Shown: piece after piece, positions 20,219 through 23,368 of the stretch
Position numbering within the stretch: the first letter of the stretch is position 1
Layout: each line of letters begins with the position of its first letter
Source of the DNA: Streptococcus rubneri
Lineage (GTDB): Bacteria; Bacillota; Bacilli; Lactobacillales; Streptococcaceae
Assembly: GCF_004785935.1 (NCBI RefSeq)
Contig: NZ_SRRP01000001.1
Coordinates: forward strand, 806,001 to 870,000
Length of the DNA: 64,000 nt
Reading direction: 5' to 3'
Notes under the pieces: generated by a model
The model's input: only the letters and a program-made list of their open reading frames with translations
Databases searched by the model: none
Told to the model about the DNA's origin: nothing
Translations under genes and position numbers: made by a program

Positions 20219-21021
20219 CGTTCACTCCTTTCTCTCGTTCCCCACATGACTAAGAGCATAGCAAGGATCAAGACCACTCCAATGGTCGAACCCATTCCCC
20301 AGTTTTGCGTTGTGAGGAAATGTTGCTCGATGGCAGTCCCCAGCGTAATCACTCGGTTTCCTCCGATCAAACGCGTCAACATGAAGAGACTCAAACTTGG
20401 AATAAAGACCGATTGGACACCAGAACGAACCCCATTCATAGACAGCGGGAAGACAACCCGACGGAAGGTATCCCACTTATTAGCTCCTAGATCATAGCTA
20501 GCATTGATGAGATTTGGATCCAAATCATCTAAGACATTGAAGATAGGAAGGATCATAAAGGGCAACTCAATGTAACTAGCGACAAAAATGAAAGAAAAGT
20601 CCGTAAAGAGGATCTGTTGAGGACCAATCCCAATAAAGCTCAAGAATTGGTTAATAGATCCCCCTTGACCAAAGATCCCGATAAAGGCATAAGCCTTGAG
20701 CAGGAGGTTGACCCAGGTCGGAAGGACGATCAGCATGAGCCAGAGTTGACGATGCTTGAGTTGGGTCAAAAAATAAGCTGTCGGGTAAGAAATCAAAAGC
20801 GTTACAAAGGTAACGATCCCAGCGTAGAGAATGGAGTTAAAACTCATCTTCAAATAAGTCCAATTCTGCGCTGTAAAAAAGGTTTGATAATTCTCTAAGG
20901 AACCCTGCCCCTGGACATTGACAAAGGATTGCCAAATGATCAAGGCTACAGGAGCCAAGACAAAGAGGAGAATCCAGAGAAAGTAGGGGACCACAAAGAG
21001 GTTAGAGGTTGTTTTCTTCAT
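20215..21021 (-). CDS. potB: Polyamine ABC transporter permease PotB
   Basis: This 268-aa permease is the partner of PotC. It has six membrane helices and the EAA loop [22 protein letters not shown] set the start at the ATG at 21021 (MKKTTSNLF): AGGAGG lies 7 nt upstream, whereas the in-frame codon at 21042 has no ribosome site. The start lies inside the 3' end of potA, overlapping it by 20 nt. Confidence 0.95.
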
Positions 21022-22159
21022 CTCTTTCCTCCTCGATGGCATTGATCAATCCAGCTTCTTGCTCTTCCACTTCTACGTATTCTTCGATCCGAGCATCAAA
21101 CTCTTCTTCCGTTTCATTGAGACGCATGACGTGGATGTCTTCAGGCTCAAAGTCCAGACCGATTTCCTCACCCACGATAGCCTTACGCGTCGAGTGAATC
21201 ATCCACTCATTGCCTAATTCATCATAAGCAATGATTTCATAGTGAACGCCACGGAAAAGTTGCGTATCCACCTTCACCTGCAGCTTGCCTTCTTCAGGCA
21301 GTGTAATCTGCAAGTCTTCGGGACGAATCACGACTTCGACCGGTTCGTTTGGCCTCATCCCTCCATCGACCGACTCAAAGCGTTTGCCGTTGAATTCTAC
21401 TAGGTAGTCTTCGATCATGATCCCTGGAAGGATGTTGGACTCACCGATAAAGGTCGCAACAAAATGGTTGATGGGCTCATCGTAGATATCAACTGGTGTC
21501 CCTGACTGGACAATTTCTCCTTCGTTCATGACGAAGATCCAGTCACTCATCGCTAGCGCTTCTTCCTGGTCATGGGTTACAAAAACAAAGGTAATGCCCA
21601 GGCGTTGTTGCAATTCACGGAGCTCATACTGCATGTCTGTCCGCAACTTCAAATCGAGAGCAGACAAGGGCTCATCCAAAAGGACCACTCGCGGTTCATT
21701 GATAATCGCCCGTGCAATGGCTACCCGCTGGCGTTGTCCACCAGAAAGTTTCTGGATGGAACGTTTCTCAAAGCCTCCCAATTGCACCATCTTAAGGACT
21801 TCTGTCACTCGTCTCTCGATTTCAGCCTTGTCTACCTTCTTCAAACGAAGGGGGAAGGCAACATTCTCATACACATTCATGTGTGGGAAAAGGGCATAGG
21901 ATTGGAAGACGGTATGGACGTCCCGTTTGTTAGTCGGCACATCATTGATCCGAACACCATCCAAGAGGACATCCCCTGTTGAAGCGTCTAACAAACCGGC
22001 AATGATATTCAGAATCGTTGATTTACCAGATCCTGAAGCACCGAGGAGGGTATAAAATTTCCCTTCTTCCAACTCAAAGTTGATATCTTTGAGAACCACT
22101 GTATCGCTGTCTTCAAATACTTTTGAGACATTTCTAAACTCAATAATTGGTTTTTTCAA
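21002..22159 (-). CDS. potA: Polyamine ABC transporter ATPase PotA
   Basis: This 385-aa ATPase energises PotBC. It has Walker [10 protein letters not shown] (40-48), signature LSGGQRQ (around 141), Walker B VVLLDEP, and a C-terminal TOBE-like regulatory domain with [12 protein letters not shown]. It ends in a glutamate-rich tail ([20 protein letters not shown]). The start is TTG at 22157-22159, and the only nearby ATG in another frame belongs to a short upstream ORF whose stop lies 1 nt before it. A weak start behind a structured leader suggests control at the level of translation. Confidence 0.95.
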
Positions 22160-22160
22160 T

Positions 22161-22184
22161 TCACATAAATTCCTTCTTTTTCAT
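22161..22184 (-). CDS. 7-codon upstream ORF of potA (MKKKEFM)
   Basis: The short frame ATG AAA AAG AAG GAA TTT ATG TGA has a good ribosome site (AGAAGGA, 6 nt before the ATG). Its TGA lies 1 nt before the potA TTG. Ribosomes ending here would be placed on the potA start, so this looks like a coupling or sensing leader peptide. It is too short for codon statistics; the evidence is the ribosome site and stop-start geometry only. Confidence 0.45.
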
Positions 22185-22189
22185 GCGTT

Positions 22190-22365
22190 TCCTTCTGAGA
22201 CCAACCAACTAGTCTCATAGGCTGACGAGCGGACCCGTCAGACCACCAACACCTCTCGGGGACTTATAAGACTGCCCCACCTATTTTCGGTATCGATAGG
22301 CACTCACCCCCCTTCTAAAGTAGGAAAGGTCTACCCTAGAGTAGCCCTTATTCCATCTCGAACCC
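22190..22365 (-). ncRNA. Structured intercistronic leader between murB and potA
   Basis: This is about 175 nt of GC-rich sequence with no long ORF, and it is transcribed with murB-potABCD. Read 5' to 3' on the minus strand, at least five stems are visible. They are GG-CUACU/GGUAG-CC; CCUUUC/GAAGGG; GCCUAU/AUAGGU; CUGACG/CGUCAG (22222-22241, perfect 6 bp plus GG/CC with a bulge); and UGAGAC/GUCUCA (22196-22217, perfect 6 bp). A GGGG/CCCC pairing is also possible. The last stem ends just before the ribosome site of the 7-codon ORF. I do not recognise a known riboswitch class. A polyamine- or translation-responsive leader is inferred from position. Confidence 0.55.
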
Positions 22366-23268
22366 TTAATCTTTCCCAATAATACGGACTTCGCGCTCCA
22401 AGGTCACACCAGCTGATTTTTCAACTGTCGCGATGACATGAGCGATTAAGTCTTCATAATCTTTGGCAGTACCATGATCGACATTGATCATAAAGCCAGC
22501 ATGCTTTTCAGAAACCTCTACACCACCAATCCGGTGTCCCTTCAGTCCTGCTTCACTAATCAATTGACCAGCAAAGTGACCAACTGGCCGTTTAAAGACC
22601 GAACCACAAGACGGGTATTCGAGAGGTTGTTTCAGTTCTCGCAAATGTGTCAAGCGAGCCATTTCTTGATTGATCTGATCATAATTACCTGGAGCTAAGG
22701 CAAACTTAGCAGCAATCACCACATCTCCTGTCTCTTGGATCTTGGAATGACGATAGCCAAAGGCTAATTCTTCTGCTGTTAAGGTTTTAATATCTCCTTC
22801 TGACGTCAAGACCTTACACGATTGGAGAATGTGGGCAATCTCACCACCATAGGCACCAGCGTTCATATAAACAGCTCCACCAATGCTACCTGGAATCCCA
22901 CAAGCAAATTCAAAGCCTGTTAAGCTATGATAGCGCGCCACATGGGTCACATCGATCAGCTTAGCTCCTGCCTCTGCTTCAATGACGTAACCATTAACCT
23001 TGATATCACGGAAATGGTCAAACATGATAACAAAGCCGTCAATTCCACCATCACGGACGATGATGTTAGACGAATTCCCCAAAACCATCCATGGAATCTC
23101 ATGAGCATTGGCAAAAGTGACAATTCGTTTTAATTCATATTGATTGCGAGGGAAAGCTAAATATTCTGCGGCCCCTCCCACCTTGGTATAGGTATATTGC
23201 TTGAGTGGCTCATTGAACAAAACCTCAATGCCATCTAAGTCTTCTTTTAATAATTCTAGGATTTCCAT
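22366..23268 (-). CDS. murB: UDP-N-acetylenolpyruvoylglucosamine reductase MurB
   Basis: This 300-aa FAD enzyme reduces UDP-GlcNAc-enolpyruvate to UDP-MurNAc in cytoplasmic peptidoglycan precursor synthesis. The FAD-binding segment [12 protein letters not shown] (about 62-73), [20 protein letters not shown] (124-143) and the proton-donor region [11 protein letters not shown] (218-228, active serine) are intact. It is the first gene of murB-potABCD, a common streptococcal arrangement. A TGATATAAT extended -10 lies on the minus strand with its TATAAT at 23300-23305. Confidence 0.97.
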
Positions 23269-23343: not shown

Positions 23344-23368
23344 CGGAACCAGCTTTTAACTGATTCCG
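23344..23368 (-). terminator. Terminator after the 307-aa membrane protein gene
   Basis: The hairpin CGGAA-CAG/CTG-TTCCG, with one mismatch and a short loop, is followed on the minus strand by TTTTTG. Confidence 0.7.

Follow-up and report, generated by a model that had tools for sequence, protein, structure and literature searches.

Introduction

In animals, the polyamine-homeostasis gene AZIN1 is preceded by an upstream open reading frame (uORF) that begins with the near-cognate start codon AUU, and on the uORF of AMD1 the ribosome stalls at the stop codon by means of the nascent peptide. Bacterial genes with comparably weak starts include infC (AUA) and cvfC1 (AUU) of Staphylococcus aureus, both of which carry extended Shine-Dalgarno (SD) sequences, and three non-canonical starts tested there reportedly reach, in poor medium, about one tenth of the expression obtained with AUG (PMC13009471). 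For Escherichia coli, a stimulating effect of polyamines on initiation at UUG and GUG has been reported (PMC4405209). Co-transcription of murB with the polyamine import genes potABCD has been described for Streptococcus pneumoniae, S. suis and S. agalactiae, the last of which has a murB-potA gap of only 48 nt and is reported to induce potABCD transcription in response to spermidine and spermine (PMC8744998, PMC7990898).

The window considered here is a stretch of 64,000 nucleotides from Streptococcus rubneri (GCF_004785935.1, contig NZ_SRRP01000001.1), in which the gap between murB and potA is considerably longer. Comparison with homologous loci makes us confident that this gap holds a genuine translated leader. 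On these comparative grounds, the element is a conserved leader open reading frame (ORF) with a near-cognate start codon, embedded in covarying RNA. A widespread leader ORF of this kind would escape gene finders as well as ribosome profiling limited to AUG, GUG, CUG and UUG. These four are the only starts scored in the Ribo-RET study of S. pneumoniae D39, as far as its main text describes the procedure (PMC9426450), and since AUC is not among them that data set neither supports nor excludes the leader ORF. Two short blocks of the leader and the presumed murB and potA locus tags were not found in the main text of PMC9426450, and a search of the literature outside most subscription journals and outside supplementary tables, among them the one in PMC6296669 with 141 pneumococcal 5'-UTR candidates, returned no description of the leader.

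The murB-potA gap

murB and potA are encoded on the minus strand (Table 1) and are followed by ORFs resembling potB, potC and potD, named from their translations. An earlier note on this DNA had described the gap as GC-rich and structured, with two perfect 6-bp stems. Its GC content is indeed 49% against 41.4% for the window, rising to 58% in the conserved core (22220-22314), and both stems are exact (CUGACG/CGUCAG at 22222-22227/22236-22241 and UGAGAC/GUCUCA at 22196-22201/22212-22217). They are inverted repeats that look alike on either strand; the conserved RNA reads on the minus strand. The folding energy of the single sequence does not clearly exceed chance, with z values of -0.34 for the plus strand, -1.35 for the sense strand and -1.33 for a longer sense stretch. 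The same note had recognised no known riboswitch signature, in agreement with Rfam, which gives 0 matches at gathering scores over the whole window. When 4227 families were searched up to an E value of 10 over 22100-22420, the sole match was MEG8_3, at chance level and on the plus strand. The SAM-I covariance model has no match in 22100-22420, and it is through this model only that the spermidine riboswitch, a SAM-I variant, was judged.

A scan of the operon strand found no terminator-like site in the gap. The promoter scan of that strand gave one 9-of-12 match, at 22407-22379 inside the end of murB, which is not relied on, promoter-like matches in the scanned region numbering 6 against 2.4 expected. 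Upstream of murB on the operon strand, a terminator-like hairpin with a T-tail is seen at 23344-23368 (minus).

Table 1. Features of the murB-potA region, in window coordinates; helices and the leader ORF are predicted.
Feature	Coordinates	Strand	Remarks
murB	22366-23268	minus	
potA	21002-22159	minus	
murB-potA gap	22160-22365	minus (operon strand)	206 nt
Extended SD of leader ORF, AAGGGGGGUGA	22304..22314	minus	evidence: duplex energy with 16S tail
GCCU, 5' arm of helix PA	22298..22301	minus	just 5' of start; partner AGGU 22251-22254; alternative partner GGY before stop
Leader ORF (proposed name potL)	22238..22297	minus	AUC start 22297-22295, peptide IDTENRWGSLISPREVLVV, stop UGA 22240-22238; frame open in homologues
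Hairpin P2, 5' arm, inside ORF	22275..22278	minus	evidence: covariation
Hairpin P2, 3' arm, inside ORF	22258..22261	minus	evidence: covariation
AGGU, 3' arm of helix PA	22251..22254	minus	within codons for E-V
Hairpin S2, 5' arm, CUGACGGG	22234..22241	minus	holds leader stop codon and CUGACG
Hairpin S2, 3' arm, CUCGUCAG	22222..22229	minus	evidence: covariation
Extra 8-bp hairpin (contains UGAGAC/GUCUCA)	22196..22217	minus	L001-L007, the window's closest relatives
Second mini-ORF MKKKEFM, SD AGAAGG	22161..22184	minus	ends just before potA start; window's clade
potA SD region, AGAAGGAA	22170..22177	minus	
potA start codon UUG	22157-22159	minus	

A covarying RNA element upstream of potA

A DNA search with the gap gave matches in 129 of 197 Streptococcus genomes, most of them confined to the 30-odd bases before potA. 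The 90 gap loci retrieved, 77 of them distinct, include many that share a block of about 100 nt, others that are almost bare and some that are different or degenerate. They were aligned (A1) without L034 and L047, which are false pattern matches, and L022, which is cut by a contig end; 25 of 43 trimmed unique rows formed the basis of a second alignment (A2) and of a covariance model, R1, with 25 sequences and 17 pairs. RNAalifold on the first MAFFT alignment returned 7 pairs and neither P2 nor S2, because the variable loops were misaligned, and it was replaced by hand-defined helices, the covariance model and counts of pairs. The counts cover 69 distinct sequences, which were aligned to the model (A3).

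Over all modelled pairs, 92.6% of the cells in the 69 sequences can pair; sliding the partners brings this down to 47.4% or less. An alignment of this type leans towards the model's own helices. Both-sided changes are found in 109 cells, compared with 33.7 in shuffled data and 39 or fewer with slid partners. Covariation gives strong support to P2 and S2 as conserved helices: both-sided changes occur at all 6 modelled pairs of P2, in which 84.1% of the cells pair because the register shifts between clades, and at 4 of the 7 modelled pairs of S2 (96.5% paired), the hairpin that carries the leader stop codon. Support is modest for an H-type pseudoknot, S1, which would form between the GGY before the stop and an RCC in the S2 loop; it pairs in 95.6% of the cells, with a both-sided change in 5 of the 69 sequences at one of its three pairs. 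In the window's clade S1 is lost and the S2 stem is longer. Helix PA pairs in 96% of the cells and is almost invariant, so that covariation offers no support for it; likewise, the pairing of the 5' GCC with GGY (99.5%, nearly invariant) is neither supported nor refuted by changes. The blocks GCCUAU and GAG are nearly invariant too. The position of the extra hairpin next to the window's core is occupied by other sequences in L008-L016 and L019-L020, and the remaining A1 rows have no insert.

For the earlier note, these results support a conserved RNA element ahead of potA, attested by covariation, by covariance-model matches and by potA as the next gene. Compensatory changes affect one of its two stems: CUGACG is part of a covarying helix, whereas UGAGAC shows none and forms its hairpin only in L001-L007. 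The element is present in close relatives as expected there, though about half of the genus lacks it. The idea of a polyamine- or translation-sensing RNA holds up for translation, given the conserved leader ORF and its exceptional SD; its polyamine half has genomic context only, and nspC, a gene of spermidine synthesis, does not track with the element. The strong SD, the open frame and the pseudoknot option had escaped that first reading.

A proposed leader reading frame with a near-cognate start codon

Upstream of the GCCU-AU(C/U) block, the homologues carry an AAAGGRGGUGA-like sequence that is nearly the full complement of the 16S tail. In the window its duplex with the tail reaches -16.6 kcal/mol, compared with a best value of -12.7 and a median of -5.9 for 52 ORFs of the window of at least 150 aa, which were mechanically called from the first start of the frame, so that some of their starts may be wrong. 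None of 2000 random 20-mers is as strong. GGRGG is separated from AUC by 9 nt in 53 loci and by 8 nt in 15, the motif being unread in 1 of 69. From the AUC, a frame of 19 codons in the window and 14-19 codons across homologues leads into S2; the first residue of its peptide is presumably fMet.

The length of the region follows the frame. From AUC to the base before S2 there are 57, 54 or 51 nt in 68 of the 69 distinct sequences. The exception (53 nt) is L061, from genome G063, where one base of the leader is deleted and the A-run of potA has an additional A; it may reflect an assembly error or a decayed locus. Over the first 13 codons frame 0 is free of stops in 69/69, while stops occur in 30 sequences in frame 1 and in 66 in frame 2. 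Counted over the whole region, 6, 63 and 66 of the 69 sequences have a stop in frames 0, 1 and 2. Among 14 clade representatives, the whole region is open in frame 0 in 9, and in the other two frames in 1 and 3. These 69-locus counts are not blind, the pattern having required AU[CU], the S2 anchor being motif-shaped and the forms of L147-L149 having been added by hand. The codon at the 5' end of S2 is UGA in 53 sequences, UAA in 13, UAG in 2 and CAA in 1, the last of which has a UAG two codons earlier. Early closure of frame 0 is confined to codons 15-17 (L036, L069, L148, L151, L158 and the frameshifted L061), and the stop thus falls on the 5' arm of S2 or up to three codons before it. In L147 the S2 arm is largely rewritten and an in-frame UAA is retained.

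The start codon itself is equally persistent. AUC is present in 86 of 86 loci found with the covariance model, which imposed no AUC requirement: 83 were recognised by pattern and 3 by eye (L125, L178 and L182, missed by the pattern behind the 69-locus frame, stop and spacing counts). These three have an altered, weaker-looking SD and keep AUC. L069 has AUU in its place. In 34 of the 69 sequences, AUC is the only candidate for a start, since canonical start codons are missing both from codons 2-10 and from the in-frame stretch that runs upstream to the nearest stop. The window has an in-frame GUG two codons upstream of AUC, but it lies only 3 nt from the G-run. Elsewhere in the same genome, sites with an SD followed by ATH form no class: 8 matches (two overlapping) were obtained against 7 for the reversed pattern. 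The search pattern does not match the window's own SD, where there is one more G. Two features expected of a bacterial regulatory leader ORF are found here, namely a frame kept open across relatives and a ribosome binding site at a plausible spacing.

Distribution of the element

R1 matches 148 of 284 Streptococcus genomes (E up to 0.1), a figure that includes two weak matches (G013, G077) and one cut by a contig end (G028); about half of the genus is therefore without the element. Second matches occur in two genomes, on a contig fragment in G028 and weakly in G272. In all 30 strong new loci that were fetched, potA is the next gene. Outside the genus, a 295-genome sample of the order gave ten weak matches of at most 22.2 bits under strict filters, none of them convincing, and the six that were fetched (L162-L166, L169) lie near neither potA nor murB. 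Scanning the GTDB species collection with a sequence pattern returned 72 hits, of which 71 are Streptococcus with a potA start motif within 200 nt, and the remaining one, in a Rikenellaceae bin, lacks that motif and is due to chance. The species hit include S. oralis, S. mitis, S. pneumoniae, S. pseudopneumoniae, S. sanguinis, S. cristatus, S. sinensis, S. parasanguinis, S. peroris, S. infantis, S. minor and others; the pattern is stricter than the element, and the species are largely those already covered by the genomes above, which makes the scan neither a census nor an independent sample. The occurrence of nspC is similar in genomes with the element (65 of 146) and without it (53 of 138; Fisher P 0.34), in a test that treats genomes as independent and omits G013 and G077, where the match to the element is weak, as well as a weak nspC match (G267).

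Several gaps of other types were seen alongside. The leaderless gaps L037, L039 and L043 keep compact pseudoknot-like sequences near potA with letters changed on both sides, for example GUC-GACAA-GAC-UUGUC in L037 and CAGGGUCUAACAGAACCCUAAUCUGU in L043. A different conserved gap, found in L051, L063, L065, L066, L074 and L081, has an upstream GAUUGGGA able to base-pair with the loop sequence UCCCAAU(C) of a UAACA/UGUUA hairpin. In L036 and L043 (S. minor-type, G013), murB is followed by a terminator-like hairpin ending in GCUUGUAUC with a U-rich tail; in L036 this hairpin stands directly before the leader SD, with hardly any room for a promoter between them.

How the leader may act on potA

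The gap probably encodes a cis-acting translated leader that controls potA through its own translation. In this model, the weak start codon would keep initiation on the leader frame infrequent; ribosomes that do start would open helices PA and P2 along their path and come to termination on S2/S1, some 46-84 nt before the UUG of potA. Translation of the leader would then alter how potA is translated, or how stable the mRNA is, within the murB-potABCD transcript, which makes the element a concrete candidate for setting polyamine import apart from murB within one transcript. Simple masking of the potA SD by the leader is not supported, because its accessibility hardly rises when the leader is covered: when 16 representatives were folded without pseudoknots, a leader covered along its whole length left the accessibility unchanged or lower in 15 of them, with a gain of 0.02 in the other one, and a ribosome placed only at the leader stop gave a gain of no more than 0.05 in 6, no change in 2 and a decrease in 8. 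Coupling, reinitiation or an effect on mRNA stability would be candidate routes to potA. Close to the potA start, an out-of-frame AUG lies 7 nt upstream of the UUG in 64 of 69 distinct loci; in the window it forms a start-stop AUG-UGA (22157-22166, minus), and in many others a short ORF that overlaps the potA start. The mini-ORF MKKKEFM was considered as a conserved leader before potA and rejected, the frame not being kept in parasanguinis-type loci.

The most natural input to such a leader would be the stringency of initiation at AUC, on which IF3, polyamines and Mg2+ could bear. By analogy, this input is plausible, with polyamines as one possible signal, because infC of the window's own genome (L289) apparently starts with AUA after a strong SD, AAAGAGGUGA, because S. 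aureus uses AUA and AUU starts, and because of the polyamine effect on UUG and GUG in E. coli. More specifically, and only tentatively, the leader may be a start-codon sensor in which the AUC, held by a near-perfect SD helix, is initiated in proportion to the polyamine level or to IF3 stringency. If so, the translation machinery itself would report polyamine status to the polyamine importer. The leader also lends itself to asking whether the choice of start codon in Gram-positive bacteria responds to polyamines. Such a leader is not the only way to a polyamine response, as the reported induction of potABCD in S. agalactiae, with its short gap, indicates.

Leader translation as the control is favoured, from the comparative data, over an arrest peptide or an aptamer. 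An arrest peptide, in which the nascent leader and a polyamine or another effector would stall the ribosome at the stop codon and thereby control potA, is unlikely. Stalling leader peptides such as TnaC and polyamine-linked uORFs are known elsewhere, the leader stop lies on a conserved hairpin, and the residues E-V recur near the end of the peptide in 58 of the 68 in-frame distinct regions, 53 times exactly 3 residues before the end. However, in 5 of the 68 that distance is 0 or 1 residue, in 10 E-V is missing, and conserved C-terminal residues at a fixed distance from the stall site, the mark of an arrest peptide, were not found. Moreover, the E-V codons overlap the pairing partner of GCCU, for which GAGGU may be kept, and the final A/V overlaps the S1 strand, so RNA pairing can explain both. 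Nor do the residues show significant purifying selection: a permutation test on 28 disjoint close pairs, from which L061 was excluded, counted 21 synonymous changes where 19.1 are expected (P 0.34), and the BLOSUM excess in the same pairs was not significant (P 0.19). A stop-change test on close pairs was left unused as biased, the pairs having been picked by ORF length, and whole-set frame counts were taken instead. As the frame is kept open and the peptide is without significant selection, it is probably the movement of the ribosome and not the peptide that counts.

A metabolite riboswitch, whose aptamer (for spermidine, for example) would leave the open frame as a by-product of conserved sequence, is quite unlikely. 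The nearly invariant GCCUAU and GAG blocks, the covarying helices, the pseudoknot option and the position before a polyamine importer are all in keeping with an aptamer. The frame, the whole-codon length classes and the three interchangeable stop codons would be left unexplained, however, masking of the SD is not predicted, and Rfam has no match, SAM-I included, of which the spermidine riboswitch is a variant. Very unlikely, too, is a protein-binding or processing site that would govern how fast the mRNA decays or the ratio of murB to potA, the ORF serving only to gate the access of ribosomes to it. Such a site would suit a single-copy element with a covarying fold close to the potA ribosome binding site, between genes reported to be co-transcribed, but no protein partner is indicated and the very strong leader SD would be superfluous. 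An ordinary spacer with chance stems, in line with a folding energy that is not clearly unusual and with the short gap without element of many streptococci, is practically refuted by the covariation counts, conservation and covariation lying far beyond the controls.

Comparison with known systems

Among described systems, the potA leader comes closest to leader-peptide attenuators and bacterial uORFs such as tnaC and the uORFs of S. aureus (PMC13009471, as far as these are described there), being likewise a short ORF that has an SD of its own, precedes a putatively regulated operon and has its stop codon at a structured region. It differs from them in its near-cognate AUC, conserved across many species of the genus, in a peptide that is not clearly conserved, in having no terminator after it and in the polyamine importer downstream. 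The combination of an AUH codon with an extended SD is that of infC-type starts, as in S. aureus infC (PMC13009471, in its account of this gene), and a similar sensitivity to IF3 would be expected; unlike in infC, the weak start here drives a leader of 14-19 codons and not a protein. Weak starts as a possible point of polyamine action also link the leader to the polyamine modulon of E. coli, and potA here starts with UUG; in the modulon, as outlined in PMC4405209, the weak UUG or GUG stands on the gene itself, whereas in the streptococcal element it stands on the leader, and the polyamine response is putative. The spermidine riboswitch, a SAM-I variant, is likewise an RNA element linked to polyamine genes; it acts on transcription termination and is known from 13 examples, and the main text of PMC10853860 does not mention Streptococcus. 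In contrast to it, the streptococcal element has no match to SAM-I or any other Rfam family. The uORFs of AZIN1 and AMD1 resemble the leader as upstream ORFs before a polyamine-homeostasis gene, a likeness by analogy only, for they depend on eukaryotic scanning and conserved stalling peptides, unlike the streptococcal leader. Should the start-codon sensor exist, which we regard as possible but doubtful, it would be the bacterial counterpart of the AUU-started uORF of AZIN1.
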